From Gammaproteobacteria bacterium (GTDB lineage: Bacteria; Pseudomonadota; Gammaproteobacteria; S144-34), in the NCBI GenBank assembly GCA_026989495.1, contig JALSJE010000098.1, positions 1-54,038 on the forward strand: DNA of 54,038 nucleotides, written 5' to 3'. The notes beneath the pieces were generated by a model. That model was not told where the DNA came from. It ran no database searches and was given only the letters and a program-made list of their open reading frames with translations. Positions within the stretch are counted from its first letter, which is position 1. Each line of letters begins with the position of its first letter. The position numbers and the translations under genes are program-made. This document shows positions 17,338-38,680 of this stretch, in pieces.

Positions 17338-18582
17338 TCAGTGGCGCCCCGGATGGGAGCGCAGTCCCGGGTCGCGCATGAAGCGGATGCGCTCCTCGCT
17401 GAACTCGCACCAGCCGTCGCTGGCGAGGCTCTCCAGGTAGCGCCGGGCCAGGCGCTCGTCCACCCCCGCCGTGCGGGCGAGCTCCGCGGGGCCGGCCTGC
17501 ACGCAGCGGGCGGCCTCGCCCGCCCCCTCGCGCTGGCCCCGCGCGGGGCGGGCCACCTCGTAGAGCGCCCGCAGCGCATGGTCGAGGCGCTCCTCGGTGG
17601 TGCCGTAGGCGAGCATGAGGGCGAGCTCGTCGGTGCGGCGGATGCGCTCGGCGAAGAGGTGGAGCAGCTCGTGGGCCCGGGCGGGGTCGCGCCCGATCTG
17701 CGCGTGGAAGTCCTCGCGCCGGATCGCCACCACCTCCACGTTGGTCGTCGCCGTCGCGGTGGCCGAGCGCGGCCGGTCGTCCACCAGCGCCAGCTCGCCG
17801 AAGAGCTCTCCGGGCCCGAGGGTGGAGAGCGTGAGCACGCGGCGCTCCTGCGGCGAGTAGCGCGTGATGCGGACCGTGCCCATGTCGATGAGATAGCACT
17901 CCGCCGCCCGGTCGCCCTCGCGGAAGATGACCTCCCCGGCGCTGTAGAGCAGCCGCTCGGCGTGGGTGGCGAGCTGGGTGAGGGTGGCCTCGCTGTGCTC
18001 CAGCCGCTCGAAGGCCCAGGCGTGGAAGTCGGCGAAGCGGCAGGCCATGGGCACGATGTGCTCGCCGATCTCCCCGATCCAGATCTTCCCGGCGAGCGGC
18101 CGGAAGCCGATGCGCCGGTACATGGCCGCGCTCTTGTGGTTGACCGAGGCGATGACGTGGGTGGTGCCGTGCTGCACCCCGAGCGCGGCCGCGACCTTGA
18201 ACAGGGCGCGGAAGATGTCGCGGCGCTTGCGCCACGGCCTGCGGATGGCGAGCATGCTGGCGCTGGCGAGACGGGCCTGTCCCCCTTGGCGCCCGCTCTC
18301 CTCGGCGGCCTGGGCGCGGTAGGCTGAGAAGTCCCAGAACAGCTCCGAGGGCAGCCCGGCGCCGGTGTCGTCGTTCAGCCTGAGCGTGGCGATGGGCTCG
18401 GCGCCCTCGTAGGCGATCAGGTTGAAGCAGCCGGGGTGGGCGTCGTAGCGGTCGGTGATGTAGGGCGGCGCGTGGGCGGCGCCGCCGAAGTAGCCCTCCT
18501 CCTGGGCGTAGACGTGCCAGCGCAGGTGGAAGACGTCGTCCATCTCCTGCGCGCTGCGGGCGATCTTGACCCGGATGGGCAT
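17338..18582 (-). CDS. FeeM-like N-acyltransferase fused to a CRP-like cyclic-nucleotide-binding regulator
   Basis: A 414-aa two-part protein. Residues 1-200 resemble the N-acyl amino acid synthase/autoinducer-synthase (GNAT-like) family seen near exosortase genes: FHLRWHVYAQEEGYF, IATLRLNDD, LASASMLAIRRPWR, VIASVNHKSAAMYRRIGFRP. Residues 208-330 form a CRP-type cNMP-binding barrel (GEVIFREGDRAAECYLIDMG, GPGELFGELALVDDRPRSAT). Residues 345-400 look like a winged helix (AELARTAGVDERLARRYLE). It may make an acylated signal under nucleotide control, or be a sensor that lost catalysis. It is convergent with prsT and divergent from the PEP-CTERM gene at 19033. Confidence 0.8.
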   Translation of the reverse strand: MPIRVKIARSAQEMDDVFHLRWHVYAQEEGYFGGAAHAPPYITDRYDAHPGCFNLIAYEGAEPIATLRLNDDTGAGLPSELFWDFSAYRAQAAEESGRQGGQARLASASMLAIRRPWRKRRDIFRALFKVAAALGVQHGTTHVIASVNHKSAAMYRRIGFRPLAGKIWIGEIGEHIVPMACRFADFHAWAFERLEHSEATLTQLATHAERLLYSAGEVIFREGDRAAECYLIDMGTVRITRYSPQERRVLTLSTLGPGELFGELALVDDRPRSATATATTNVEVVAIRREDFHAQIGRDPARAHELLHLFAERIRRTDELALMLAYGTTEERLDHALRALYEVARPARGQREGAGEAARCVQAGPAELARTAGVDERLARRYLESLASDGWCEFSEERIRFMRDPGLRSHPGRH

Positions 18583-19032: not shown

Positions 19033-19974
19033 ATGAAGACCCGGTTCAAGAAGACCCTGATCGCCTCGGCCGCCGCCGCGGCGTTCGGCCTTTCCGGCGC
19101 GGCGGGCGCCGTCGAGTTCCTCTTTGACGCCGACGCCGGCGGGACCGACTTCGGCTACGTGAACTCGCCCCTCGATCCGAGCGCGGGCGACTACCGGCCC
19201 GTCAACCTCTTCGGTCTGCGGGCCAAGTCCAACTACGACGTCGTCATCGACACGGGCGTCGCCGGCGGGGTGGACACGATCGACGCTGGCGACACCTTCA
19301 CCGAGAGCATCCTGTTCAACCTGGAGCGGACCGTCGACAGCGGGGGCAACACGGTCTGGACCTACAACATCAAGCCCTCCGGGGGCGGGTTCAGCGTCAC
19401 GAGCAGCTTCGTCTACTTCGACGTGCAGCTCTCGGGCGTGATCAGCAGCTATTCGGGCGGCGCCGACGGTCCGACGAGCCTGGCCTGCCTCGGGCTGGGG
19501 ACCTGCAGCGTCGTCGACGACGTCTTCGACTTCGACTTCACCGGCGGCACGATCGACATCTACTACGACGACGACGCCACGCCCGGCGGCGACATGCTGC
19601 TCGCCTCCCTCACCGTGACCGGCGGCGGGGCCGACAACTTCTCCTTCGACAACCCCACCGCCACGGCCGACATCGGCGTCATCGCCGAGTTCGACTGGGT
19701 GCTCGACGGTGTCTTCTCCTACCTCGGCGGCACCGACTTCGCCGACGCGCTGGCGGCAGGCACTGTCATCACGGCGCTGGCGGACGCCTCCGTGAACCTG
19801 GAGGGCGTGGGCGGCGCGCCCGGCCTGGGTACGGGTGGCGGCGACCTCATCATCCTGACCGTTTCGGACAACGGCACCACGGCCCGCATCCCCGAGCCCG
19901 TGAGCGCCGCGCTGGTGGGGCTCGGCCTGCTCGGCATCGGCGGCCTCGCGCGCCGGCGCCGCCGGGCGTCCTGA
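19033..19974 (+). CDS. PEP-CTERM sorting-domain protein
   Basis: A 313-aa secreted protein with a Sec signal peptide (MKTRFKKTLIASAAAAAFGL, cleavage near GAAGA) and a canonical C-terminal IPEPVSAALVGLGLLGIGG-L followed by ARRRRR. The mature part is acidic, low in cysteine and rich in Gly/Asp/Ser/Thr, as in EPS-matrix PEP-CTERM proteins; the fold is unrecognised. A flocculation-associated PepA-like role is possible but not shown. Strong AGGAGGAAG lies just before the ATG. It is driven by a near-perfect sigma-54 promoter and followed by a strong terminator, so it is monocistronic. Confidence 0.9.
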   Translation: MKTRFKKTLIASAAAAAFGLSGAAGAVEFLFDADAGGTDFGYVNSPLDPSAGDYRPVNLFGLRAKSNYDVVIDTGVAGGVDTIDAGDTFTESILFNLERTVDSGGNTVWTYNIKPSGGGFSVTSSFVYFDVQLSGVISSYSGGADGPTSLACLGLGTCSVVDDVFDFDFTGGTIDIYYDDDATPGGDMLLASLTVTGGGADNFSFDNPTATADIGVIAEFDWVLDGVFSYLGGTDFADALAAGTVITALADASVNLEGVGGAPGLGTGGGDLIILTVSDNGTTARIPEPVSAALVGLGLLGIGGLARRRRRAS

Positions 19975-20162: not shown

Positions 20163-21290
20163 TCAGGGCTCGGGGGCCGGACCCCGGCCTTCGGCGCCCC
20201 GCGGCGGGCCGTCCACCAGCAGGGCCTCGAGGGGCAGGCGCAGGCTGCGGGCGCGGGCCGGGCGGCCGTAGCCCAGCCGCCCCAGGAAGACGGCGCGGCG
20301 CGCGCCCTCGGGTCCGAGCAGGCCCTCGAGCCGGGCGGCCACCTCCCGGGCGCGCTCGAGGGCGCGCCGGCGCGTGGCGAAGGCGATGCCGCGGCGCGCG
20401 TAGGCGGCGAAGATCAGGGGGGTGGTCTGGGGCTGGAGCCGCAGGCCGCAGCGGGTGGCGGCGAGCCAGAAGCGCTGCACGGCCACCCCCGCCGCCGCGT
20501 GGTCCTCGGGCCGCTCCGGCTCGTGCGGGGCGAGCAGGGCGAAGTGCGCGCCGCACAGGAGCCCGGGGAGCAGGTCCATCTCGATGCGCGGCCACCAGGT
20601 GCCGGCGAGCCAGCGGTTGAGCCGGTCCACCCGGCGCCAGCTCGCCAGCGCCCAGCGCATGACCGCCCTGAGGAGGGGATCGACGCCGAGCGCGCGGTCC
20701 GGGATGCCCCATTCGCTGTGGCGCCGGCCCCAGCGGATGACCTCGCGGTGCTCCCGCCAGGCCTCCTCGATGGTGAGCCGGATCCAGGCGCTGCGGAAGT
20801 AGAGCAGCGCCATGCGCGCCCGCCCGGCCCAGCCGCCGATCCAGCGCACGCGGTAGCCCTCGGGGAGGCTCGCCTCGAGCGCCCGCCGGTGCGCCGCCCG
20901 CGGCGGGCGCGGGCGCATGGGCGTGCGGCGCACGCTGCGGCGGCGGATGGCCCCGGCCAGGGGGTCGGGGCTGATGCCGGGATCGGCCTCCAGGCGCACG
21001 TCGAAGGTGGGGCGGACCCAGGGGGCGTCCGGGCGCAGCGTCCAGGAGGCCCGCACCCCGCGGGCGGCGGCGGCCAGCCGCAGCGTCTCCAGCAGGGCGC
21101 CGAGGGCGAGCAGGCTCGCATGGCCCTCGAGGTCGTACACGCAGCGCTCGCCGATGCGCCGCCCGTGCACCACGACATGCCCCGGCCCCGCGAGCTCGAA
21201 GCGCCAGACCTGCGTGTTGTCCCCGCTCGGCGCCCAGCGCGCCTCGTCGAGGATGGCCAGCACCGTCCCGCGGTCGGGCGGTGCCGTCAT
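20163..21290 (-). CDS. Nitroreductase-fold protein
   Basis: A 375-aa protein. The N-terminus has ILDEARWAPSGDNTQVWRF, the classic FMN-binding start of the nitroreductase family, and the region near residues 310-345 (LRLQPQTTPLIFAAYARRGIAF) resembles the second half of that fold. The middle is longer than in simple nitroreductases. The electron acceptor is unknown. The start codon lies inside the ThiF-like gene (ATGA-type overlap), so the two are translationally coupled. Fused ThiF-nitroreductase proteins are known in mycobacteria (Rv1355c type), which supports a joint function. The open frame extends further upstream only as shadow sequence. Confidence 0.8.
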   Translation of the reverse strand: MTAPPDRGTVLAILDEARWAPSGDNTQVWRFELAGPGHVVVHGRRIGERCVYDLEGHASLLALGALLETLRLAAAARGVRASWTLRPDAPWVRPTFDVRLEADPGISPDPLAGAIRRRSVRRTPMRPRPPRAAHRRALEASLPEGYRVRWIGGWAGRARMALLYFRSAWIRLTIEEAWREHREVIRWGRRHSEWGIPDRALGVDPLLRAVMRWALASWRRVDRLNRWLAGTWWPRIEMDLLPGLLCGAHFALLAPHEPERPEDHAAAGVAVQRFWLAATRCGLRLQPQTTPLIFAAYARRGIAFATRRRALERAREVAARLEGLLGPEGARRAVFLGRLGYGRPARARSLRLPLEALLVDGPPRGAEGRGPAPEP

Positions 21291-22168
21291 GGCGGCTGCC
21301 CCTCCCGCAGGCGGCGCAGCTTCCATCGCGCGTAGGCGAGCGCGGCCCGCTGCAGGGGATTGCGGTGCCCCCCGGGACGCCAGGTGCGGCGCGTGCGCAG
21401 CGTGTAGGCGTCCATCTGCACGGCCCACGGGGCGGGCAGCAGCGGCCCGCGCCCCAGCACGAGCTTCATCGCCTGCGCCGCGGCGAGGCCGGCGCACAGC
21501 TCGACCGCTATGCCCGTCGAGGGGCCGCGTCGTGCGGCGAGGTCCACCGCCGAGGGATCCACCAGATAGCCTCGATGGATCATGGCGGGCGCCAGCCCGA
21601 TCAGGAAGCGCAGGGCCTGCTCCTCGGGCGGGCGGCCGGCGAGCCCGAAATAGTCTTCGAAGCCCATGCCGTCCGGCACGAAGGTGACGAGCGCGGCGCT
21701 CAGGCCCAGCGGGCCCGCGATGACCGCCGGGATGCCGCGCCGGCGGCAGGCCTCGAACAGGGGGGGACGGAGGTCGAGGACGAAGAAGTCGAGGCCGTCC
21801 AGGTACACGTGGGCGCCGTCGAGGAAATCGTCGAGGCTGGCTTCGTCGACGCCCTCGCGCAGGATGCGCACGTCCGCCTCGGGGTTGATCGCGCGGACCA
21901 TCTCGGCGACGACCTCGGCCTTGGACCGGCCGAGCGTGTCCAGACGGGCGCCGGCCTGGCGGTTGAGGTTCGCGAGCTCGAACCGGTCGGGATCGGCGAG
22001 CGTGAAGGCGCCGACGCCGAGGCGGGCGAGGGTGAGCGCGTGGCTGCCGCCCACGCCGCCCACGCCGGCGATGGCGACGCGCGTGCGCCGCAGGCGCGCC
22101 TGCTCCTCGCGGGTGAGCCAGCCGATGTTGCGCGAGAAGGCGAGGGCGTAGTCGAAGGCGTCCGCCAT
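21287..22168 (-). CDS. ThiF/MoeB/E1-like adenylyltransferase
   Basis: A 293-aa Rossmann-fold protein with the nucleotide-binding motif AGVGGVGGSHALTLARLGV (from residue 34) and DPDRFELANLNRQAG, the signature of ThiF/MoeB/ubiquitin-E1 enzymes that adenylate a protein or peptide C-terminus. The CxxC zinc pairs of MoeB/ThiF are not seen. No ubiquitin-like or sulfur-carrier partner is encoded nearby. The ATG at 22168 is chosen because it begins the conserved region; the open frame upstream is a shadow. It is divergent from the LolA-like gene at 22313. Confidence 0.85.
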   Translation of the reverse strand: MADAFDYALAFSRNIGWLTREEQARLRRTRVAIAGVGGVGGSHALTLARLGVGAFTLADPDRFELANLNRQAGARLDTLGRSKAEVVAEMVRAINPEADVRILREGVDEASLDDFLDGAHVYLDGLDFFVLDLRPPLFEACRRRGIPAVIAGPLGLSAALVTFVPDGMGFEDYFGLAGRPPEEQALRFLIGLAPAMIHRGYLVDPSAVDLAARRGPSTGIAVELCAGLAAAQAMKLVLGRGPLLPAPWAVQMDAYTLRTRRTWRPGGHRNPLQRAALAYARWKLRRLREGQPP

Positions 22169-22244
22169 GGCTGCCGTCCACGCTGCGGGACCAGGCGAAG
22201 CATAGCCTGCCCCCGCGGGCGCCGCGACGGTGCGAACTCCGTCG

Positions 22245-22273
22245 TTGACCACCGGGTGGGCGGCCGGTATGTT
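22245..22273 (+). promoter_or_regulatory. Sigma-70-type promoter for the lipid-transport-like operon
   Basis: TTGACC (22245-22250), a 17-bp spacer and TATGTT (22268-22273) lie in the 144-bp divergent gap. The predicted start is about 35 nt before the ATG at 22313. Confidence 0.6.
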
Positions 22274-22312: not shown

Positions 22313-23131
22313 ATGGGTGCGAGGGCGATGGGGGTTGCGGCGGCGCTGGTGCTCGCCGCCGCCGCGCACGCGGCGCTTGCGGCGGAGGCCGATCCGGAGG
22401 CGGCGGGGCGGGCGCTCGCCGAGCGCGTCTATGACCGGCCGGACGGGCGCGACCTCGCCACGCGCAGCGTCATGGTGCTGCAGGAGAAGGGCGGCCGGCC
22501 CCGCGTGCGCCGGATGTACACCTACCGCCTCGACCTCGGGGGCGGCCGCGTGCTGTCGCTGATCCGGTTCACCGCGCCCGAGGACATCGCGGGCACGGGC
22601 CTGCTCACCCTCGACCATCCCGGCGCGGCCACGGACCAGTGGCTTTATCTCCCGGCGCTCGGGCGCGTGCGGCGCATCGCCGGCGAGCGCAAGGGCGGGC
22701 GCTTCGTGGGCTCCGACCTCTATTACGAGGACCTGCGCGACCGCGAGCCCGACATGGACCGCCACCGCCTGCTGCGCAGGGAGAGGTTCCAGGGCGTGCT
22801 GTGCGAGGTGCTCGAGAGCGTGCCGGCCGAGCCGGGCAACTCCGTCTACGGGCGCCGCGTGAGCTGGATCCACCCGCAGACGCTGGTGGCGCTGCGCGTC
22901 GACTTCTTCCCGAAGCGGGGCGGCTCTCCGCTGAAGCGCCTGGTGGTGCACCGCATCCAGCGCATCCAGGGGTTCTGGACCGTGATGGATAGCACCATGA
23001 CGGAGCTGCGCAGCGGGCACCGCACGCGCGTGACGGTGCGCAAGGCGCTCTACGACCAGGGCCTGCCGGAGTCGCTGTTCACGCAGCGGGTGCTGGAGGA
23101 TCCGGCCGCGGAACGGAGGTTCCGGCCGTGA
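22313..23131 (+). CDS. LolA-like periplasmic protein (outer-membrane lipoprotein-sorting family)
   Basis: A 272-aa protein with an N-terminal signal peptide ending near ALAAEA. The mature part (TRSVMVLQEKGGRPRVRRMY, ENIAGTGLL-like DIAGTGLLTL, YLPALGRVRRI, GSDLYYEDLRDREPD) matches the LolA-like family that accompanies MMPL/RND transporters. Such proteins have a lipid-binding half-barrel and probably shuttle a lipid or lipoprotein across the periplasm. It starts the three-gene operon 22313-27787 and ends in a GTGA overlap with the next gene. An in-frame ATG at 22328 is an alternative start. Confidence 0.82.
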   Translation: MGARAMGVAAALVLAAAAHAALAAEADPEAAGRALAERVYDRPDGRDLATRSVMVLQEKGGRPRVRRMYTYRLDLGGGRVLSLIRFTAPEDIAGTGLLTLDHPGAATDQWLYLPALGRVRRIAGERKGGRFVGSDLYYEDLRDREPDMDRHRLLRRERFQGVLCEVLESVPAEPGNSVYGRRVSWIHPQTLVALRVDFFPKRGGSPLKRLVVHRIQRIQGFWTVMDSTMTELRSGHRTRVTVRKALYDQGLPESLFTQRVLEDPAAERRFRP

Positions 23132-25506
23132 GGCGCCCGGTCGCCGCCTGTCTTCTGCTGGGGCTGCTGGCCGGCTTCCCGGGCCCCTGGGGGCAGGGGC
23201 GGGCCGCCGCCGCGCAGGCCGCGCCCGCCCCCGAGGTCGTGGGCCAGTACCGCGCCCGCGGCGAGGCCGAGCGCGCGGCGGAGCGTCTGCGGCGCGGCGG
23301 GGCGCGCGTCGAGGTGCGCGCGGTCCGGCGCGAGCGGATCCTGCACCGCGTCCAGCTCGGCCCCTTCCCGGGCCGGCGCGAGGCCCTGGCCGCGGCCGCG
23401 CGCCTGCGCGACGCCGGCGTGCCGCACATCGTGCGCCGGGCCGCGCGCGCGCGCGGGCATCTGATCTCCCTCGGCGCCTACCGCGAGCCGGCGCGGGCGC
23501 GGGAGCTCGCGGACCGGGCGAGGCGGCTCGGGCTGCGGGGCGTGCGGGTGGTGCCCGTGCGGTACGAGGAGCGGCGCTTCCTGGTGGTGCGCCTGCCCGC
23601 CCGGGCGCAGCCGGCCCCGCGCCGCGCGGCCGGCAGGGCGGCGCCCGCCCGGGCGAGGCCGGCGCCCGTCCCGCCGCCGCGGCCCGCGCCGGTCCGGCAG
23701 GCGGAGCGCGCCGCCGCGGATGCCGGCGCCGGGCCCGGGCCCGCCCCCGAGGGGCCGCGCGTCTTCGCCTCGCGCCGGGCGGCCGAGGCCCATGCCGCCC
23801 GGCTCGTGGAGGAGGGGTGGCAGGACGTGCGCGTCGAGCCCCGGCGCGAGCGCGTCACGCTTCGTGCGGTGATCCTGCGGGTGTACCAGCGCTGGGCCGA
23901 CGCCCAGCGGGTGGCCGTGCGCGTGCGGCGGCTGGCGGGCCTGCCCGCCCGGGTGGTGCGTGACCGCTGGGAGCGCGGCTACATGGTGGTGGCGGGCGCC
24001 TACGCGAGCGCCTCACGGGCCGGGGCGGCCCACCGGCGCCTGCGCCGGGTCGGCTTCCGCAACGTGCGCGTCGTGCCCACGCGGGCGCGGCGCACGCTCT
24101 ATGCGGTGCTGGCGCGCCCGCCGGTGCCCGAGGTGGCCGAGCCGGCGGCGGCCGAGGCGCCCGAGCCCGAGCCGCTCGGCCCCAACGTGCTGGTCTTCGC
24201 CGGCGCCGAGCCGCTGCCCGCGGCGGCCGCGGCGGGCGAGGAGGCGGCCGCGGCCGGCGGGCCCGAGGCCGGGCTGCGGCTCGAGGCCGGCGGCTTCACC
24301 GACGGCGCCGCCCCCGCCGACGCCTGGGGCTACGCCCATGTGCGCCTGGGCCATGTCTGGCGGGGCGAGGGGCCGTGGGAGGCGAAGCTCGCGGTGCGTG
24401 GCGACGGCTACCGCCAGTGGGACGGCGCGGCGGCCTTCGCCGAGGGGCGGGCCGACTACGACGAAGTCTGGCTGCGCTGGCGCGGCGAGCGCCTGCGGCT
24501 GACGCTGGGCGCGCAGCGGGTGGTATGGGGCCGGGTGGACGAGATCCCCCCCACCGACCGCCTCTCCGTGCCGGACCTCAGGCGCTTCGTGCTCGACGAG
24601 CTGGCCGACCGCCGCCTCACCGTGCCCGCGCTGCGCCTGGAGTGGTTCGCGGGCGCCTGGAAGCTGGACATGCTCGCCGTGCCCCGGTTCCGCCCGGCGG
24701 AGCTGCCCGACCCCGACAGCGTCTGGCATCCCGTGGACCGGCGGGCGGGAAGGCTACTCGGCGTGAAGGACCATCCCGTGCTGGGCGCGCTGGTCCGCGG
24801 CGGGCGCTTCGGCGAGGACGACGACGGCGCCGGCGGGGGTGGGCTGCGGCTCACGCGTGCCGGCCATGGCGTGGATCTCGGCCTCACGCTGCAGCGCGCG
24901 CGCCGGGCGCTGCCGTACTGGGAGCTGGACGCCGCCGCCCGCGCCGTGCTGCTGGGCGGCGGCACGGTGCCGGCGGCCCTCGCCGCGGCCCCGGGCGATA
25001 CCTTCACGGCGCGCCATCCGTGGACCACGGTGGCCGGTTTCGACCTGGCGCTGGCGCGGGGCACCACCACCTGGCGGCTGGAGCTCGCCTGGAGCAGCGA
25101 CGAGCCGGTCACCCGCACCGATCTCTCGATGGACACCGTCCGCGCCGTGGACTGGGTCGCCGGCGTCGAGCTCTATCCGGGCGGCCGCGACATGCGCCTC
25201 AACCTGCAGCTGTCGGGCCGCCATCTGCTCGATGCCGGCAGCGTGCTCGACCGCACCCGCGTGCTGGCGCTGGGCGGCGCGCTGGAGGACACCTTCGCGC
25301 ATGGGCGCTGGCGCGCGCGGCTGCGCTTCTCCACCGACCTCGAGCGGCGCGACCTCTACCTCAATCCCGAGCTGGCCTGGCTCGGCTGGGAGCCCCACGA
25401 GCTCTACCTGGGCGCGCACGTGTTCGAGGGCAAGGGCGCGGAGACGGCCGGCGGCTTCCACGACGCCAACGATCTGGTCGTGATCGGCTGGCGCGCGCGC
25501 TACTGA
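23128..25506 (+). CDS. SPOR-repeat region fused to outer-membrane beta-barrel
   Basis: A 792-aa protein starting at a GTG with GGAGG upstream. After a signal peptide (residues 1-30), residues about 40-165 and 210-330 contain several SPOR-like repeats (RVQLGPFPGRREAL, LISLGAYREPARARELADRA, YMVVAGAYASASRAGAAHRRL), which usually bind peptidoglycan. From about residue 385 the sequence becomes an alternating amphipathic barrel (WEAKLAVRGDGYRQWDG, LRLTLGAQRVVWGRVDEIPP) ending in Tyr, like the DUF1302-type outer-membrane proteins found next to MMPL and LolA-like genes. The fusion would tether a barrel to the cell wall. I do not recognise this exact architecture. Confidence 0.72.
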   Translation: MRRPVAACLLLGLLAGFPGPWGQGRAAAAQAAPAPEVVGQYRARGEAERAAERLRRGGARVEVRAVRRERILHRVQLGPFPGRREALAAAARLRDAGVPHIVRRAARARGHLISLGAYREPARARELADRARRLGLRGVRVVPVRYEERRFLVVRLPARAQPAPRRAAGRAAPARARPAPVPPPRPAPVRQAERAAADAGAGPGPAPEGPRVFASRRAAEAHAARLVEEGWQDVRVEPRRERVTLRAVILRVYQRWADAQRVAVRVRRLAGLPARVVRDRWERGYMVVAGAYASASRAGAAHRRLRRVGFRNVRVVPTRARRTLYAVLARPPVPEVAEPAAAEAPEPEPLGPNVLVFAGAEPLPAAAAAGEEAAAAGGPEAGLRLEAGGFTDGAAPADAWGYAHVRLGHVWRGEGPWEAKLAVRGDGYRQWDGAAAFAEGRADYDEVWLRWRGERLRLTLGAQRVVWGRVDEIPPTDRLSVPDLRRFVLDELADRRLTVPALRLEWFAGAWKLDMLAVPRFRPAELPDPDSVWHPVDRRAGRLLGVKDHPVLGALVRGGRFGEDDDGAGGGGLRLTRAGHGVDLGLTLQRARRALPYWELDAAARAVLLGGGTVPAALAAAPGDTFTARHPWTTVAGFDLALARGTTTWRLELAWSSDEPVTRTDLSMDTVRAVDWVAGVELYPGGRDMRLNLQLSGRHLLDAGSVLDRTRVLALGGALEDTFAHGRWRARLRFSTDLERRDLYLNPELAWLGWEPHELYLGAHVFEGKGAETAGGFHDANDLVVIGWRARY

Positions 25507-25519
25507 CCTGGCCTGGGGG

Positions 25520-27787
25520 ATGGGGCTGGCGGCACGGGGGAGGCTCGCGGCGGCGGCCCTGCTGCTGCTGAACCTGCTCCCCCTGCCCGCCCTGCTCCGG
25601 CTGCACGTCGACAACGCCCCCGAGGTCTATTTCCCGGAGGAGGCGCCTGCGGTGCGCTTCGAGGCGGCGCTGCGCGCGCGCTTCCCCCAGGACGAGGTGC
25701 TGGTGGCGCTCCTCCGTCCGCCGGCGGGCACGGACCCGCTCGCGCTCTTCGACGATGCCTTCCTGGGCCGTCTCCAGGCGGTGGCCGAGCGCCTGGAGGC
25801 CCATCCCCTGGTGGACCGCGTCCTCACGCTCACCACCCTGGAGCACATCGAGGGCACGGCCGACGGCTTCACGGTGACGCCGCTGGCGGCGCCGGACGAC
25901 GGCCGCACCCCGCGGGAACGGCGCCGCCGGGCGCTCGGGGACCGCTTCGCCCCGGGATTCGTGGTGTCCCGCGACGGGGACACCGCCGCGCTCATCGTGC
26001 GCCCCGTCGGCCTGCGCGGCAGCGCCCAGCGGGTGGAGGTCCTCGAGGCGACGCGCGCGGCGCTGGCGGCCGAGGGCCTCGAGCCCTGGGTCGCGGGCCT
26101 GGCGGGGGAGGTCGCCCTGGCCGTGGCCCAGCTCGAGTCCATGGTGCGCGACTCGGCGACCTTCATCCCCGTCCTCGTGCTCACGGGGCTCGCGCTGGTG
26201 GGGTGGCTCTTCCGCCGCATGCTCGCGGTGGCGCTCACGGGGCTCGCGATCGGGGCCGTGGTGCTCAGCACGGTGGCCGTGATCGCGCTCTGGGGCCGGC
26301 CCTACACGCTGGTCTCGGCCATGATCCCGGCGCTGCTCACCGCGCTCACGGTCGCGCTCCTGATCCACCTCTTCAACGCGGTCCGTCTCGCCGACCGCCG
26401 GGGCCACCGTCGAGAGGCCCGGATACGGCGTGCCCTGGAGGAGATCGCGCGCCCCGCCCGCTACACCGCCCTCACCACCGCGGCCGGCCTCGGCTCGCTC
26501 GCCCTGAGCCCCGTGGCCCCGATCGCCACCTTCGGCATCGCGGCCGGCATCGGGGCGCTGCTCCTGTATCCGGTGGTCGTGGTGCTGGTCGCGGCGGTGC
26601 TCGCGCGCTACGACCGCGGGCGCTGGCCCGCCGGCGCCGGGGCGCGGTGGCTGGACCGGCTGGTGCGGCGCGCGGCGCGCCTCGGGATGCGGCGGGCCGG
26701 GGCCGTGGCCGCCCTCACGCTGGCCCTGTCGGCCGCCGCGGTCCCGGCCGTGCTCGCAGTGCGTGCCGAGACCGACCTCTACCGCTTCTTCGGCGAGGAC
26801 CACCCCCTCACCCGCGCCACGCGGCTCGCCGAGTCGAAGCTCTCGGGCGTGGGCACGCTGGAGGTCTATCTCGAGGGTCCGGGCCGCGACGCCCTGAAGG
26901 CGCCCGAGCGGCTCGCGGCCCTCCTCGCGCTGCAGGGCTGGCTCGAGGCCCAGCCGGAGGTGGACCGGACCGCCTCGGCCGCCGAGCTGGTGGAGGAGAT
27001 GAACTGGGCCTTCCATGGCGAGGATCCCGCCCACCGCCGGCTGCCCGGCTCCCGCCGCCTGGTCGCCCAGTACCTCTTCGTCTACGACGGGCGCGACCTG
27101 TGGGAGCTCGCCGACCGCGAGCTCGCCGCCGCCCGGCTCCCCATGAACCTCGCGATCCACGGTGCCAACGCCATCGAGGCCTTCATCGGGCGGCTCGAGG
27201 CGCGGCTGGAGGAATCGCCCCCGGCCGACCTGCGCTGGCGGGTCGCGGGGCTGGGGCGGCTCTTCGCCGACCAGGAGGACCTGCTGGTCACGGGGCAGCT
27301 CCGCAGCCTCGCCGGTGCGCTCGCGCTGGTCTTCGCGCTCATGCTGGCGCTCTGGCGCAGCCTGCGGGCGGCGGCGCTCTGCATGCTGCCGAACCTCGCG
27401 CCGGTGCTGCTCATCTTCGCGCTCATGGGCGGGCTCGGGGTGTGGCTGGACATGGCCACGGCCATGATCGCCTCCGTCGCCATCGGCATCGCCGTGGACG
27501 ACACCATCCACGTCTACGAGGGCTACCGCCGCCGGCGCGCGGCGGGCGTCGGCACGGTGCTGGCGCTCGGACGCACCTACGCCCAGGCGGGCCGCGCCAT
27601 CACCCTGACCACCTTCGTGCTCGGCGCGCAGTTCCTGCTGCTCGGTACCTCCGCCTTCGTGCCCACCGTGGAGTTCGGGCTGCTCAGCGCCGCGGGGCTG
27701 GTGGCCGCGCTCCTGTTCGACCTGCTGCTGCTGCCCGCCATCCTGGTGCTGGCCGCCCGCAGCCCGGACCGCCGGCGGCCCGCCTGA
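25520..27787 (+). CDS. RND-superfamily (MMPL-type) transporter
   Basis: A 755-aa inner-membrane protein with the MMPL/HpnN layout: one N-terminal helix, a periplasmic domain (residues 30-200), a block of five to six helices (about 205-360), a second periplasmic domain (415-590) and a final helix block (595-745). Conserved stretches include ALLTALTVALLIHLFNAVR and ASVAIGIAVDDTIHVYEGYR, the latter carrying the proton-relay-type Asp pair. It probably extracts a lipid-like substrate for the LolA-like protein and the barrel. It lies 13 nt after the barrel gene. Confidence 0.88.
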   Translation: MGLAARGRLAAAALLLLNLLPLPALLRLHVDNAPEVYFPEEAPAVRFEAALRARFPQDEVLVALLRPPAGTDPLALFDDAFLGRLQAVAERLEAHPLVDRVLTLTTLEHIEGTADGFTVTPLAAPDDGRTPRERRRRALGDRFAPGFVVSRDGDTAALIVRPVGLRGSAQRVEVLEATRAALAAEGLEPWVAGLAGEVALAVAQLESMVRDSATFIPVLVLTGLALVGWLFRRMLAVALTGLAIGAVVLSTVAVIALWGRPYTLVSAMIPALLTALTVALLIHLFNAVRLADRRGHRREARIRRALEEIARPARYTALTTAAGLGSLALSPVAPIATFGIAAGIGALLLYPVVVVLVAAVLARYDRGRWPAGAGARWLDRLVRRAARLGMRRAGAVAALTLALSAAAVPAVLAVRAETDLYRFFGEDHPLTRATRLAESKLSGVGTLEVYLEGPGRDALKAPERLAALLALQGWLEAQPEVDRTASAAELVEEMNWAFHGEDPAHRRLPGSRRLVAQYLFVYDGRDLWELADRELAAARLPMNLAIHGANAIEAFIGRLEARLEESPPADLRWRVAGLGRLFADQEDLLVTGQLRSLAGALALVFALMLALWRSLRAAALCMLPNLAPVLLIFALMGGLGVWLDMATAMIASVAIGIAVDDTIHVYEGYRRRRAAGVGTVLALGRTYAQAGRAITLTTFVLGAQFLLLGTSAFVPTVEFGLLSAAGLVAALLFDLLLLPAILVLAARSPDRRRPA

Positions 27788-29507: not shown

Positions 29508-30143
29508 GTGAGCACCATCCGTACGAGCTGGTCCAGCCGGGCGATCCCGGCCGTTCTCGTCGCCGCCGCCACGATGCTGGCGGCCTGCGCGTCCGCACCC
29601 GCGGGCCCGGGACCCAAGGGGGACGCGGCCGCCGCCTCGCCACCCTACATCATCGGCCCCGGCGACACGGTGCAGGTCTTCGTGTGGCGCAACCCGGAGC
29701 TGTCGGCCACGGTGCCGGTGCGGCCCGACGGCAGGATCACCACCCCGCTGGTGGAGGACCTGCAGGCGAGCGGCAAGACCCCCACCCAGCTCGCCCGCGA
29801 CATGGAGCAGGCCCTCTCCAGGTACATCAAGAACCCCATCGTCACGGTGATCGTGACCGGGTTCGTGGGCCGCTACAGCGAGCAGGTGCGTGTGGTGGGC
29901 GAGGCCGCCCAGCCGCGCGCGCTCCCCTACAAGGAGGGCATGACCCTGCTCGACGTCATGATCGCCGTGGGCGGGCTCACCGAGTATGCCGCCGGCAACC
30001 GCGCCAAGCTGGTGCGCATGGTCGGCGGCAAGCAGCAGGTCTACACCGTGCGGCTCGAGGACCTGGTGCGCAAGGGCGACGTTTCGGCCAACGTCCGCAT
30101 CCTGCCCGGCGACGTGCTGATCATCCCCGAGGCCTTCTTCTGA
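29508..30143 (+). CDS. XrtA-associated polysaccharide export lipoprotein (Wza-like)
   Basis: A 211-aa outer-membrane lipoprotein (MLAAC lipobox, Cys27). YIIGPGDTVQVFVWRNPELS and VPVRPDGRITTPLVEDLQ form the Poly_export domain, and the SLBB-type segment EQVRVVGEAAQPRALPYKEG follows, ending LPGDVLIIPEAFF. Short members of this type serve as the outer-membrane channel in exosortase-linked EPS loci. The start is a GTG with GGGAGGG 10 nt upstream. It opens the operon that continues with the chain-length determinant and tyrosine kinase. Confidence 0.92.
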   Translation: MSTIRTSWSSRAIPAVLVAAATMLAACASAPAGPGPKGDAAAASPPYIIGPGDTVQVFVWRNPELSATVPVRPDGRITTPLVEDLQASGKTPTQLARDMEQALSRYIKNPIVTVIVTGFVGRYSEQVRVVGEAAQPRALPYKEGMTLLDVMIAVGGLTEYAAGNRAKLVRMVGGKQQVYTVRLEDLVRKGDVSANVRILPGDVLIIPEAFF

Positions 30144-30173
30144 GGCGCGGCGCGCCGTGCGGGGAGCCTGCCC

Positions 30174-31763
30174 ATGAACGAGCTCATCTTCCAGATCCAG
30201 TCGCTGGCGCGCGGCCTGTGGCGCTTCCGCTGGCTGGCCCTGGGCATCGCCTGGGCGGTCTCGCTCGCCGGCTGGATCTTCGTCGCCCGCATGCCGGACC
30301 AGTACCAGGCCACGACCCGTGTCTACGTGGACACGACCTCCATGCTCAAGCCGCTGCTGCGCGGCCTGGCGGTCCAGACCGACCTGCGCCAGCGCCTGCG
30401 CCTCATGACGCGCAGCCTCCTCAGCCGCCCGAACCTCGAGAAGGTGGCGCGCATGACGGACCTGGACCTCAACGCCCGCACCCCCGAGCAGATGGAGGCG
30501 CTCGTCAACGACCTCGCCCGGCGCATCAGGCTGCGCGACGCGGGCCGGGTCAACCTCTACACCATCAGCTTCACCGATCCGGATCCCGCGCTGGCCAAGC
30601 GGGTGGTGCAGGCGCTGCTCACCATCTTCGTCGAGAGCAACCTGGGCGACACGCGCCGCGAGAGCGCCACGGCGCTCAAGTTCCTGGACCAGCAGATCGC
30701 CGATTACGCCAGGCGCCTGGACGAGGCCGAGCGGCGGCTGATGGAGTTCAAGCGCCGCAACGTGGGCCTGCTGCCGGGCCAGGGAGGCGGCTATTTCGAG
30801 CGGCTCGAGAAGCTCCAGGCCCAGCTCGAGGAGGCGCGCCTCGAGCTGCGCCAGGCCGTCAACCGCCGCGACGAGCTGCGCCGCCAGCTAGAGGATGCCG
30901 AGGCGGCCGAGGAGTACGCCCTCGTCCCCGCGGTGCCCGCAGCGGCCACGGTCTCTCCCCTGGACGCGCGCATCCAGGCGCTCCAGGCCAAGCTCGACGA
31001 GCTGCTCCTCAAGTACACCGACCAGCATCCGGACGTGGTCGAGATCCGGCGCACCATCGCCGCCCTCGAGGAGCAGAAGCGCAAGGAGCTCGAGGCGCAG
31101 GCCGCGGCCGCCGGCGGCGAGGAGCCCGCCGCGGCCGCCAGCCCCGTGAGGCAGCAGCTCAAGCTGGCCCTGGCGGAGGCCGACGCCACCGTGGCGGCGC
31201 TTCGCGTGCGCGTGCAGAGCTACGAGCGCAAGCTCGCGCGGCTCAAGTCGCTGGTGGACACCATCCCCAAGGTCGAGGCCGAGTACAAGCGTCTCATGCG
31301 CGACTACGGGGTGACGAAGAAGAACTACGAGGCCCTGCTCGCGCGGCGCGAGTCGGCCAGGATCTCCGAGGAGGCGCAGCAGACCGCGGACGAGGTCAAG
31401 TTCCGCGTGATCGACCCGCCCCGCGTCCCGCTCGATCCCGTGGGACCGAACCGCGTGCTCTACATGAGCCTGGCCCTGGGCGCGGGCGTGGCCGCGGGCG
31501 TGCTCGCGGCGCTGGTGCTGACGCAGCTGCGGCCCACCTTCGACAGCCGCCGCGCCCTGCGCCAGGCCACCGGGCTGCCCGTGCTCGGAGGGGTGATGCT
31601 TGTGCGGACGCTGACGCAGCGCATCCGGCGCCGGGTCGAGGTCACCAGCTTCGTCTTCGCCGCCCTGCTGCTGGTTCTGGTCTATGGCGGGGTGCTCACC
31701 ATCTACATGGCCGACCTGCGGCTGGCGGAGGAGCTGCGGGCGATCGCGGGGAGGTTCCTATGA
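30174..31763 (+). CDS. XrtA-associated polysaccharide chain-length determinant (Wzz-like)
   Basis: A 529-aa inner-membrane protein with transmembrane helices near residues 20-40 and 425-445 (and again near 490-510), bracketing a long periplasmic coiled coil (about 165-410). N-terminal YQATTRVYVDT and the Pro-rich VIDPPRVPLDPVGPNR before the second helix are typical Wzz features. It sets EPS length and partners the tyrosine kinase, whose gene overlaps it by 4 nt (ATGA). Confidence 0.92.
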   Translation: MNELIFQIQSLARGLWRFRWLALGIAWAVSLAGWIFVARMPDQYQATTRVYVDTTSMLKPLLRGLAVQTDLRQRLRLMTRSLLSRPNLEKVARMTDLDLNARTPEQMEALVNDLARRIRLRDAGRVNLYTISFTDPDPALAKRVVQALLTIFVESNLGDTRRESATALKFLDQQIADYARRLDEAERRLMEFKRRNVGLLPGQGGGYFERLEKLQAQLEEARLELRQAVNRRDELRRQLEDAEAAEEYALVPAVPAAATVSPLDARIQALQAKLDELLLKYTDQHPDVVEIRRTIAALEEQKRKELEAQAAAAGGEEPAAAASPVRQQLKLALAEADATVAALRVRVQSYERKLARLKSLVDTIPKVEAEYKRLMRDYGVTKKNYEALLARRESARISEEAQQTADEVKFRVIDPPRVPLDPVGPNRVLYMSLALGAGVAAGVLAALVLTQLRPTFDSRRALRQATGLPVLGGVMLVRTLTQRIRRRVEVTSFVFAALLLVLVYGGVLTIYMADLRLAEELRAIAGRFL

Positions 31764-32584
31764 GCAGCATCGAGAAGGCCATGGAGCGGGCGGCAGGCGC
31801 TGCTGGGGGCGTCGTGGAGCGTCTCGTGGCCGCCCGGCGCGTCCGGGAGGAGGCCCCGCGCCACGACCTCGACCTCGGCCGCCTCAGGTCCATGGGCTAC
31901 CTCACGCCCGAGGACTCCGACGGGGCGCTCGCCGAGCAGTACCGGATCATCAAGCGGCCCCTGCTGATGAACGCCTTCGGGCGCGGTGCCGTCCCCATCG
32001 AGGGCGGCAATCTCATCATGGTCACGAGCTCGCTGCCCGGCGAGGGCAAGACCTTCACCACCTTCAACCTCGCCATGAGCATGGCCATGGAGCTCGACCA
32101 CACGGTGCTCGTCGTCGATGCCGACATCGTCAAGCCCACGCTCACCGAGCTGGCCGGCCTCAAGGGGCGGCCAGGGCTCACCGACGTGCTGGCCAGCGAC
32201 AGTGTCGGCGTGGGCGACGTGATCGCGCGCACCAACGTGCCCAAGCTGCGCATCATCCCGGCAGGCAAGGCCCACCCCAACTCGTCGGAGCTGCTCGCGA
32301 GCCAGGCCATGCGCACCCTCATGGAGGAGCTCGCCGAGCGCTATCCCGACCGGGTGGTGCTGTTCGACACCCCGCCCCTGCTCGCGGCGAGCCAGGCGAG
32401 CATCCTCACCTATCTCGTGGGTCAGGTCGTGGTCGTGGTGGAGGCCGGCCGCACGCCCCAGCCCGTGGTCAAGGAGGCCCTCGGGCTGGTGGACTCGTCC
32501 AAGGCCGTGGGCCTGGTGCTCAACAAGAGCCACGAGCGCGGCAGCGGGGACTACTACGGCTACTACGGCCATGGCGAAGCGTAG
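31760..32584 (+). CDS. XrtA-associated tyrosine autokinase (BY-kinase)
   Basis: A 274-aa cytoplasmic kinase. Walker A is SSLPGEGKTFTTFNLA, Walker A' VLVVDADIVKPTL, Walker B VVLFDTPPLL. A short C-terminal Tyr cluster (DYYGYYG) is the autophosphorylation tail. It works with the preceding chain-length protein to control EPS polymer length and export. The reading frame is open far upstream only as shadow. The next gene begins 14 nt before its stop. Confidence 0.93.
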   Translation: MSSIEKAMERAAGAAGGVVERLVAARRVREEAPRHDLDLGRLRSMGYLTPEDSDGALAEQYRIIKRPLLMNAFGRGAVPIEGGNLIMVTSSLPGEGKTFTTFNLAMSMAMELDHTVLVVDADIVKPTLTELAGLKGRPGLTDVLASDSVGVGDVIARTNVPKLRIIPAGKAHPNSSELLASQAMRTLMEELAERYPDRVVLFDTPPLLAASQASILTYLVGQVVVVVEAGRTPQPVVKEALGLVDSSKAVGLVLNKSHERGSGDYYGYYGHGEA

Positions 32585-33995
32585 CCTCTTGGGTGCCGCC
32601 CTCGGCGCAGCGTTCGGTGCATCGGCCGCCCAGGCGGGGGGCTGGGAGTTCGGCGCCTCGCTGGCCGGCCGCCTCACCTGGACCGACAACCTGCGTCTCG
32701 TCGCGGAGGGCGGGGAGAGCGCCGGCGTGCTCGAGGTGGCTCCGGCGTTCCGGGCCCGCCGCGCCGGGCGGCGCCTGCAGGTGCGTGCCGACTACCGACT
32801 GCAGCAGTTCCTCTACACCGAGGGGCTGGGCGCCGCCGCCACCTGGCACCAGTTCCAGGGCTCGGCCAAGGCCGAGCTCGTGCGCCAGACGGTCTATCTG
32901 GACGCCACGGCCGGCTACGGGCAGGTGCTCGCCGATCCCGACGGCACGGTGCCGGTGGGCAATCTCTCGCTTACCGCCAACCGCACCGACGCGGCCAGCC
33001 TCTCGGTCTCGCCCTATGCCGTCTTCCGCCTCGGCGACGCCGCCACCGGCAGGCTGCGGTACGGCCACCGGCGCGTGCGCACGGGCGTGCGCGGCGCCGA
33101 CAGCCGCATCGACGAATGGAGCGCGCGTCTGGCCGGCCCTCCCGGCGGGCGTCGCCTCGGCTGGGGCCTGGGCTGGATCCGCAGCGAGCAGCGCTTCACG
33201 GGCCGGCCGGACTTCGAGCGCGAGGTCGCCACCGCCGACCTCAGCCTCCGCCTCACGTCCAGTCTCAGCCTGGTGGTGAGCGGCGGGCGCGAGGACAACA
33301 GCTACCAGCGCGCCGCGGGCACGCCCGCTCCCGAGGGCGGCTTCTGGAGCGCCGGCCTGCGCTGGACGCCCAGCCGCCGCACCGCGCTCGAGCTGCGGCG
33401 CGGCGAGCGTTTCTTCGGCGGCACCGCGGCCGTGAAGGCCAGCTTCCGCACGCGCCGGGCGGTCCTCGACGCCAGCTATGCGGAGGACCTCGCCACCGTG
33501 CAGCGCCTCATCCTCGACCGCCAGCTCTTCGTGCTGACCGATCCCTTCGGCAACCCGGTGCTGGCCGGGGGGGTGCCGGTGGTCATCGAGATCAGCTTTC
33601 CCGCCCTCACGGCCGAGGTGTTCCTGCGCAAGCGCGGCACGCTCGCCTGGAGCTGGCGGCGCGGCCGCAGCAGCTACGGGCTCAGCCTCTACGACGAGCG
33701 GCGGGAGTACCAGACCACCGCCGAGACCGAGCGCGTGCGCGGCGGCAACGTCTCCTGGACCTGGCGCCTCGCGCGGCGCACCACCTCCACGCTCGCGCTC
33801 GCCGCGCAGCGGCGCGACCGCCGCGGCGGCGCCGGCATGGACGACTTCCGCTACGCCACGTGGGACCTGAGCCGGCGGATACGGCCGGATCTCAGCGGCT
33901 CGCTCTCGCTGCGGCGCCTCGTGCGCGACGGCAGCGGCGGGCTGCGCAGCTACGACCAGAACGTGATCACGCTGGGGGTGACGGCCACCTTCTAG
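32571..33995 (+). CDS. PEP-CTERM-system-associated outer-membrane beta-barrel protein
   Basis: A 474-aa protein with a signal peptide ending AAQAGG, followed by alternating amphipathic strands (TWTDNLRLV, GRRLQVRADYRLQQFLY, SRRTALELRRGERFFGG) and a C-terminal Phe, the outer-membrane barrel signature. It resembles the TIGR03016-type barrel regularly found between the tyrosine kinase and the ATPase in exosortase EPS loci. It may form or assist the EPS exit route. The start lies inside the kinase gene. Confidence 0.88.
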   Translation: MAKRSLLGAALGAAFGASAAQAGGWEFGASLAGRLTWTDNLRLVAEGGESAGVLEVAPAFRARRAGRRLQVRADYRLQQFLYTEGLGAAATWHQFQGSAKAELVRQTVYLDATAGYGQVLADPDGTVPVGNLSLTANRTDAASLSVSPYAVFRLGDAATGRLRYGHRRVRTGVRGADSRIDEWSARLAGPPGGRRLGWGLGWIRSEQRFTGRPDFEREVATADLSLRLTSSLSLVVSGGREDNSYQRAAGTPAPEGGFWSAGLRWTPSRRTALELRRGERFFGGTAAVKASFRTRRAVLDASYAEDLATVQRLILDRQLFVLTDPFGNPVLAGGVPVVIEISFPALTAEVFLRKRGTLAWSWRRGRSSYGLSLYDERREYQTTAETERVRGGNVSWTWRLARRTTSTLALAAQRRDRRGGAGMDDFRYATWDLSRRIRPDLSGSLSLRRLVRDGSGGLRSYDQNVITLGVTATF

Positions 33996-34014
33996 CTCCC
34001 GGGAGGACGAGGGC

Positions 34015-35127
34015 ATGTACGAAGGTTTCTACAAGCTGAGCGGCAAGCCGTTCTCGCTCACACCGGACCCGCGCTTCTTCTTCGGCAGCCGCGGCCACAA
34101 GCGCGCGCTGTCCTATCTGCGCTACGGTCTCAAGCAGGGCGAGGGGTTCATCGTGGTCACGGGCGACATCGGCGCCGGCAAGACCACGCTCGCGGCGCTG
34201 CTGTGCGAGGAGCTCGCCGACCAGGGCGTGATCGCCGGCCGCCTGGAGAGCACCCAGCTCGGGCCCACCGAGTTCCTCGCCATGCTCTCGGCCACGCTCG
34301 GCCTGCGCCACGAGACCGGCAGCAAGGTCACGCTCCTCAAGAACCTCGAGACCTATCTCAAGGCCCGCGCGCGTCAGGGCAAGCGCGTGGTGATCGTGGT
34401 GGACGAGGCGCAGAACCTCCCGGCCGAGACGCTGGAGGAGCTGCGCATGCTGTGCAACTTCCAGGTGGACGAGCGCCCCGTGCTGCAGGCCTTCCTGCTG
34501 GGGCAGGAGCAGTTCCGCGACGTGCTCGCGGACGCCGCCCTCGAGCAGTTCCGCCAGCGGGTGATCGCCTCCTGCCACCTGGGCCCCATGGACCTCGACG
34601 AGACACGCGCCTACATCGAGCACCGCCTGCGGCTCGTGGGCTGGCAGGACGACCCCAGGCTGAGCCCCGACCTCTACGCGGAGATCCACCAGTACACCGG
34701 CGGCATCCCGCGCCGCATCAATACCGTGGTGGACCGCCTGCTGCTGTTCGGCTACCTGGAGGAGCGCCACGAGCTGGACACCGAGGCCTTCGCCACGGTC
34801 CGCCAGGAGCTGCTCGAGGAGGGCTTCGGCGAGGACGCCGTCCGCCGCCGGCAGGCCGAGAAGGCCCGGGCCCGGCAGGAGGCGGACGCCCCGCAGCTCG
34901 CCATCGTCGATGGCCCCCTCACGGAAGAGCCCGCCGGAACGCCGCAGCAGCCCCAGCAGCCGGTGGCGCGCATCGTGCCCGTGGAGCCCGACGGGAGCCT
35001 GGCCGCGCGCGTGGCGGCGCTCGAGCGTCGCGTGGAGGAGCTCGAGGCCGTCGTCAGCGGCGCGCGCGAGGCCCTGCTGGAGGCGCTCGTGCTGGGCAAG
35101 CACGGCGCCCGGCGCAGGAGCAGGTGA
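34015..35127 (+). CDS. XrtA-associated ATPase (ExeA-like)
   Basis: A 370-aa AAA+ protein beginning MYEGFYKLSGKPFSLTPDPR, the typical ExeA/GspA start. Walker A is TGDIGAGKTTL (near residue 46) and Walker B VVIVVDEAQNL. The region YTGGIPRRINTVVDRLL is the sensor/lid part. The last about 45 residues form a coiled coil (AARVAALERRVEELEAVV). It probably powers assembly of the export machine. A good GGGAGGA site lies before the ATG. Confidence 0.9.
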   Translation: MYEGFYKLSGKPFSLTPDPRFFFGSRGHKRALSYLRYGLKQGEGFIVVTGDIGAGKTTLAALLCEELADQGVIAGRLESTQLGPTEFLAMLSATLGLRHETGSKVTLLKNLETYLKARARQGKRVVIVVDEAQNLPAETLEELRMLCNFQVDERPVLQAFLLGQEQFRDVLADAALEQFRQRVIASCHLGPMDLDETRAYIEHRLRLVGWQDDPRLSPDLYAEIHQYTGGIPRRINTVVDRLLLFGYLEERHELDTEAFATVRQELLEEGFGEDAVRRRQAEKARARQEADAPQLAIVDGPLTEEPAGTPQQPQQPVARIVPVEPDGSLAARVAALERRVEELEAVVSGAREALLEALVLGKHGARRRSR

Positions 35128-35149
35128 GCGCAGGGAAGGAGACAGGAAG

Positions 35150-36355: not shown

Positions 36356-36485
36356 GCCCGTCCCCAGGCCGCGCACCTTCGGTGCCCCTGCGTGCGGGGG
36401 AGGGCGGTAGCGTGCCTGCGCCCGGCCGAAGAGGCGCCTCCATGCCGGACGGCGCGACGGACGGCCCGGCGAGACGAGAAGGAAC

Positions 36486-36521
36486 GGAAGGTCTGAAAAA
36501 CCGTGATTTTTCAGGCCTTCC
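36486..36521. repeat. 15-bp hairpin between epimerase and deacetylase genes
   Basis: Arms GGAAGGTCTGAAAAA and TTTTTCAGGCCTTCC pair over 15 positions with one G-U, around a 6-nt loop. It could be a weak bidirectional terminator, although no T-tract follows. Its CTGAAAA/TTTTCAG core resembles the repeat at 6333. Confidence 0.6.
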
Positions 36522-36613
36522 CCGCGGCCAGGGACGGCCGCGGCACGGCCCATGCACGGGGAAGTGCATGACAATGCGACGAAAATCGAAACGGACCGCG
36601 CAGCACCCCAGCG

Positions 36614-36642
36614 CTGATCAATACGCGCAGCGGATTGATCAG
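36614..36642. promoter_or_regulatory. Operator-like inverted repeat (CTGATCAAT / ATTGATCAG)
   Basis: Perfect 9-bp arms separated by 11 bp, so half-sites are two helical turns apart, 25 nt before the deacetylase ATG. AT-rich against its surroundings, it looks like a site for a dimeric regulator. Confidence 0.6.
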
Positions 36643-36666
36643 AGTTTTCGAACGGTTCACGAGCCG

Positions 36667-37581: not shown

Positions 37582-37584
37582 ACC

Positions 37585-38676: not shown

Positions 38677-38680
38677 TCCC

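Follow-up and report, generated by a model that had tools for sequence, protein, structure and literature searches.

Three abutting genes in a 54,038-nucleotide stretch of gammaproteobacterial DNA (hereafter the window) encode a LolA_like carrier, an outer-membrane barrel with SPOR domains at its N-terminus, and an MMPL pump. Reading their sequences and surroundings together, we put at about one in two the probability that this operon is an envelope-spanning exporter for a lipid derived from an N-acyl amino acid, with its outer-membrane part holding it to peptidoglycan. In such a pathway, a synthase encoded nearby would acylate an amino acid with a long chain, and ThiF and nitroreductase proteins would presumably alter the product. 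The proton-driven MMPL pump would then extract the lipid from the inner membrane, and the LolA_like carrier would ferry it through the periplasm to the DUF1302-type barrel, which would hand it to the outer leaflet or to the outside, while the SPOR arrays (LysM domains in one relative) would fasten the barrel to peptidoglycan. Beyond the anatomy, fold predictions, conservation, genomic linkage, and motor and anchor exchange documented below, we infer transport itself, its direction, the substrate, the order of hand-over and the wall tethering.

Gene layout and component families

The three genes occupy positions 22313-27787 of the forward strand (Table 1), with the start of the SPOR-barrel gene overlapping the end of the LolA_like gene by 4 bases and a gap of 13 bases before the MMPL gene. 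A previous reading of this DNA from sequence alone had described a tight three-gene operon with its own sigma-70-type promoter, and both statements hold up. The promoter-like site, about 40 bases upstream of the LolA_like gene, is the only such site in 10 kb, where shuffling gives an expectation of 0.1, and its TTGACC box lies upstream of the LolA_like gene in both congeners, with a different second hexamer there. Upstream of the operon we found no sigma-54 promoter of the kind expected for PrsR-type control, window-wide matches being at chance level, and plasmid spread of the operon was rejected on just one match at 14% coverage.

The carrier matches LolA_like PF17131 in Pfam (E 2.8e-57, 193.8 bits against a gathering score of 30) and stands barely above the cut-off for PF07044 (DUF1329), while the Lol lipoprotein carrier family gave zero Pfam matches; solved relatives are 9tp6, 4z48 and 3bk5. 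The pump matches MMPL PF03176 (E 7.1e-24, 84.8 bits against 20.5) and carries a VDDTIH motif that does not vary across the family; D660-D661, the conserved Asp pair of the C-terminal half, is invariant in 18 relatives. Its best-scoring NCBIfam subfamily is HAE3 (TIGR00921), at 111.9 bits and below the cut-off of 351.9; identity as the hopanoid transporter HpnN was rejected at 50.7 bits against 751.85. In the middle gene, SPOR PF05036 (E 6.6e-16, three stretches, 58.9 bits against 21) and DUF1302 PF06980 (E 6.2e-6, 25.9 bits against 23.2) occur in one chain. Profile search thus bears out the domain calls of the sequence-only reading, and the parts of the complete path that it proposed, from inner membrane through periplasm to outer membrane, appear to be encoded.

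Several MMPL pumps elsewhere in the family bear an N-terminal PAS domain (Table 1; the Pfam check covered L035, L037 and L049), and those of a Chromatiales-type clade have a C-terminal transposase-like helix-turn-helix as well. These are membrane transporters fused to sensor and DNA-binding-like domains.

Table 1. Positions of features in the window and in related loci (locus names prefixed L)
Feature	Position	Strand	Basis or remark
PEP-CTERM-box response regulator	10172..11596	+	TIGR02915
FeeM-type N-acyl amino acid synthase and cyclic-nucleotide-binding domain, one chain	17338..18582	-	PF21926, PF00027
PEP-CTERM protein	19033..19974	+	weak PepA likeness
Nitroreductase-family protein	20163..21287	-	recurrent neighbour
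ThiF-family (PRK08223-like) adenylating enzyme	21287..22180	-	PRK08223, 422.7 bits; divergent neighbour, conserved across the family
Sigma-70-like promoter	22245..22273	+	TTGACC-17-TATGTT
LolA_like periplasmic carrier, signal peptide	22313..23131	+	272 aa, PF17131
SPOR-barrel fusion protein	23128..25506	+	792 aa, PF05036 and PF06980
First SPOR-like array, residues 36-155	23233..23592	+	Pfam, shuffles, AlphaFold
Second SPOR-like array, residues 211-330	23758..24117	+	shuffles, AlphaFold
Predicted outer-membrane beta-barrel, residues 380-792	24265..25503	+	AlphaFold; porin/AlgE-like fold; aromatic residue last
MMPL/HAE3-type RND pump	25520..27787	+	755 aa, PF03176
XrtA/PEP-CTERM polysaccharide genes	29508..39934	+	export protein, chain-length determinant, outer-membrane protein, ATPase, deacetylase, FemAB, glycosyltransferase
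Exosortase XrtA	40006..40782	+	TIGR03109
ABC-motor loci	L066:14-5313, L068:57-5560, L067:4039-8424, L072:3771-11648		
Barrel with two LysM domains	L052:7326-9368	-	
PAS-MMPL pumps	L035:7189-10173, L037:7308-10280, L049:2341-4998		also L036, L038-L040, L043, L044
FeeM synthase with cyclic-nucleotide-binding domain, other loci	L033:1266-2777, L055:3217-4515		
ThiF and nitroreductase, one chain	L063:9558-11783		Pfam-checked; same single frame in L066, L068, L061, L064
O-methyltransferase-family gene	L062:4942-5967	-	Pfam-checked
O-methyltransferase-family gene	L065:11631-12695	+	similar

A barrel with a variable N-terminus

AlphaFold (25 sequences) models the SPOR-barrel chain with a mean pLDDT of 83, predicting strand-helix-strand repeats in both arrays (pLDDT mostly 85-97), linkers that are disordered, and a barrel that begins near residue 380 and runs to the end of the chain. 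It had been conceded beforehand that the repeats might not fold as SPOR domains; the predicted folds are of SPOR type, and the arrays share 42% identity over 81 aa. When the N-terminus was shuffled 2000 times, none of the shuffles reached the real score against any of nine distant relatives, and this result and the predicted fold rule out SPOR as an artefact of Arg/Ala-rich composition. The other early worry, that the fusion came from a sequencing join, is removed by a survey of genomes: two congeners, at 77% and 67% identity, have the same chain, and it recurs in other families at roughly 31-56% barrel identity. In one relative (G012) the SPOR stretch is kept (PF05036 E 1.3e-5) with a LolA_like gene directly upstream.

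Identity as FtsN was rejected (TIGR02223, 22 bits against a cut-off of 107.65), and a SPOR search in the PDB matched RlpA alone, weakly (E 0.21). In RlpA, denuded glycan is contacted by the conserved SPOR glutamine Q270 (PMC6895207). It is absent from the window repeats at the aligned position, and the canonical YxxQVGxF motif that includes it is found in three relatives (L055, L066 and L068). With this absence, and with about half of the family being without SPOR, the earlier suggestion that SPOR repeats position the exporter at division sites is not supported.

A SPOR-free relative is modelled with the same barrel (pLDDT 88, pTM 0.82). In Foldseek the barrel resembles AlgE and porins of 16 strands, with identities of about 6-12% and TM-scores by target of about 0.46-0.57, and matches to the full model include OmpC-MlaA and OmpM1, a porin by which the outer membrane is fastened to the wall. 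Since the barrel resembles both porins and the polysaccharide exporter AlgE, its fold tells little about substrate.

The barrel was present in 14 of the 369 genomes of a class sample, and a named genome collection overlapping that sample held 14 barrel loci, including Zooshikella, Halochromatium and Chromatiales MAGs. Across a comparison set of about 25 related loci, the LolA_like, barrel and MMPL genes occur together wherever there is enough flank, except in the very distant L056; gene order is LolA-MMPL-barrel in Halochromatium, and the pump is divergent in one genome. The N-terminus of the barrel carries SPOR in about half of the family, two LysM domains in one member and neither in the rest. 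Pfam calls SPOR on the barrel in the window genus, Zooshikella, L045, L047, L051 and L055, and a SPOR-like N-terminus uncalled by Pfam can be seen by eye in L054 and L056. In L052 the two LysM domains stand in SPOR's place, and the remaining N-termini are short, proline-rich or acidic linkers. On the barrel tree, which has many weak branches and a very long one for L056, the SPOR label must have been gained or lost at least 3 times, with 5 such changes as the simplest count. This marks the anchor as evolutionarily labile.

The core of pump, carrier and barrel is therefore conserved, while its putative wall-binding N-terminus is variable. The swap between SPOR and LysM at the same spot is our best evidence on the function of this extension, and suggests that it binds the wall. 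Tethering to peptidoglycan, the role first proposed for the N-terminus, is thus a likely one. The OmpM protein of Veillonella (8bym, 8byt) likewise joins a porin-fold barrel and an N-terminal peptidoglycan-binding domain in one chain. It differs in being a general porin and tether without a pump or carrier, and in its binding domain, which is SLH, not SPOR or LysM.

Synthase neighbourhood and exchange of the motor

The window synthase, 3.7 kb from the operon, matches the FeeM-type family PF21926 (E 4.3e-24, 85.5 bits against 27); it is divergent and falls below the TIGR03694 cut-off, which the L047 synthase exceeds. XrtA and TIGR EPS genes lie on the operon's contig. An all-against-all comparison of loci gave as recurrent neighbours ThiF, nitroreductase, TIGR03694 (exosort_acyl) acyltransferases, a TPR protein, the PEP-CTERM-box regulator and XrtA polysaccharide genes. 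ThiF and N-acyl synthase genes are each found within a few kb in 12 of the 25 loci, XrtA Wza/Wzz genes adjoin the operon in 8, and at least one of these three is nearby in 16, the rest being L056 and one Chromatiales-type clade. In the eight loci of that clade the operon has housekeeping neighbours, and a synthase was not found nearby. A homologue of the window synthase is placed between ThiF and LolA in the congener L033.

Within the 369-genome class sample, XrtA exceeded its cut-off in 11 of the 14 genomes with the operon, compared with 62 of the 355 without it (Fisher p 2e-6). For TIGR03694 the figures are 8 of 14 and 41 of 355 (p 9e-5). These p-values are optimistic, because the genomes are phylogenetically non-independent (three are congeners). 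The physical linkage, seen in several families, carries more weight: a synthase gene lies within about 1.2 kb of the operon in all eight operon genomes with TIGR03694. Most TIGR03694 genomes in the sample lack the RND operon; this speaks against our preferred reading, as do the Chromatiales-type clade, the divergent window synthase, the barrel fold that is uninformative on substrate and the missing SPOR glutamine. A linkage of N-acyl amino acid synthases to PEP-CTERM/exosortase genes was reportedly described by Craig, Cherry and Brady in 2011, and the same pairing of synthase and XrtA neighbourhood is seen here. It is these synthase neighbours that suggest an N-acyl amino acid lipid as the cargo, and enzymes with the TIGR03694 annotation have been reported to produce long-chain N-acyl amino acids (PMC9762135).

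The XrtA surroundings could also be taken to mean that the XrtA exopolysaccharide leaves the cell through the barrel as an AlgE-like pore, with the pump and LolA pair aiding its placing or lipidation. Adjoining Wza/Wzz genes in eight loci and the rank of AlgE among the best fold matches fit such a role. However, a Wza-type exporter (TIGR03027) and an outer-membrane protein (TIGR03016) are already encoded within the XrtA locus, Wza/Wzz genes are not nearby in several loci, and a hydrophobe carrier and MMPL pump are ill-suited to polysaccharide, which makes this reading very unlikely.

Further features of these loci concern the genes around the synthase. The synthase is fused to a cyclic-nucleotide-binding domain in the window (PF00027 E 1.2e-23) and in two other loci, a fusion that suggests lipid synthesis under the control of a nucleotide second messenger. 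ThiF and nitroreductase form one chain in several loci, and the window's two separate genes therefore probably share a substrate. An O-methyltransferase-family gene stands beside ThiF at two synthase loci, possibly for further modification of the lipid. The PEP-CTERM protein gene adjoining the nitroreductase gene has a weak likeness to the PepA flocculation protein (38.2 bits against 80).

A second comparison took in 20 synthase loci without the RND operon, 13 of which have a ThiF gene. In four (L066, L067, L068 and L072), genes for FtsX/MacB-type permeases lie close to the synthase together with those for a LolA_like protein and a DUF1302 barrel; an ABC ATPase accompanies them in L066, L068 and L072, and none was seen in L067. 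The barrel carries SPOR in L066 (36.1 bits, Pfam) and L068 (by sequence). All parts of L066 were scanned with Pfam, and the permeases and ATPase of the other three were called by eye from sequence similarity. Two more of these synthase loci (L063 and L080) have an MMPL gene beside ThiF. An ABC transporter (MacB/FtsX-type) thus replaces the RND pump at the same kind of locus, leaving carrier and barrel constant and the motor either RND or ABC.

Relation to known export systems

The closest described set is AmeABCD of Castellaniella defragrans, in which AmeA is a DUF1302 protein, AmeB has a LolA fold (DUF1329) and AmeD is of HAE3 type, and deletion of which lowers monoterpene tolerance (PMC6394551). 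Both systems encode a DUF1302 outer-membrane protein, a LolA-fold periplasmic protein and an HAE3-type RND pump together, and envelope-spanning export of a hydrophobe is proposed for Ame too. The differences are that AmeC (COG4447) is missing here, where just three genes abut; that the carrier here is mainly PF17131 and the Ame carrier DUF1329; that AmeA consists of a signal peptide and DUF1302, with SPOR unreported; and that Ame lies in a terpene-metabolism island, unlike the XrtA/N-acyl synthase locus here. Ame shows that three parts of this kind are able to handle hydrophobic compounds in the living cell.

This likeness also permits a reading as general hydrophobe efflux, in which the operon would be a tolerance pump for toxic compounds and its XrtA location would reflect regulation and not a shared substrate. 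The three functional parts are those of AmeA, AmeB and AmeD, and the Chromatiales-type clade keeps the operon without synthase linkage. Yet the linkage to synthase and ThiF elsewhere is tight and recurrent, and an ABC motor can substitute for the RND pump at the same kind of locus, so we regard general efflux as unlikely.

HpnN/MmpL-type lipid exporters share the MMPL/HAE3-type RND pump, HpnN acting without a dedicated periplasmic or outer-membrane partner (PMC6394551). The Lol system shares a LolA-fold carrier and, with the variant loci, a LolCDE/MacB-like ABC motor; it differs in that the carrier here is PF17131 and not LolA proper, the motor in the window is RND, and the recipient is a barrel where Lol has the lipoprotein LolB. 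The operon might accordingly serve envelope homeostasis, moving bulk lipid or lipoprotein between membranes at polysaccharide secretion sites, Lol-like or HpnN-like and with no special cargo, as the LolA fold, the pump's relationship to HpnN, the MacB/LolCE-type permeases and the OmpC-MlaA fold match would allow. A spread as patchy as 14 of 369 genomes is unlike housekeeping, however, the cut-offs for HpnN and other equivalogs are far from reached, and the carrier belongs to PF17131 with the Lol carrier family unmatched. We think this role quite improbable.

Dedicated export of an N-acyl amino acid lipid, our preferred reading, has an extension that we regard as a long shot. Archaeosortase joins its substrates to lipid, and by analogy the exporter could supply the lipid acceptor to which XrtA joins PEP-CTERM proteins, namely a ThiF-activated N-acyl amino acid that the RND or ABC motor flips outwards and the wall-anchored barrel inserts into the outer membrane. 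If true, the operon would belong to the acceptor pathway still missing for the bacterial exosortase.

Every part of the operon belongs to a known family, and the set of RND pump, LolA-fold protein and DUF1302 protein is known from Ame. The linkage to N-acyl synthase, ThiF, nitroreductase and XrtA and the ABC-motor version go beyond what the sequence-only reading saw. The combination of parts, the exchangeable motor and anchor, and the link to synthase loci look undescribed: the literature searched, outside which many subscription papers lie, contained no paper that links SPOR domains to DUF1302, exosortase to MMPL, or DUF1302 to both MMPL and LolA, and no published export machine for N-acyl amino acid lipids.

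The operon offers a probable example of an outer-membrane transport barrel that bears its own peptidoglycan tether. For years, exosortase-linked N-acyl amino acid synthases have had neither a known export route nor a known purpose for their product, and a conserved pump, carrier and barrel beside these synthases makes the question testable in cultured bacteria such as Zooshikella and Halochromatium.
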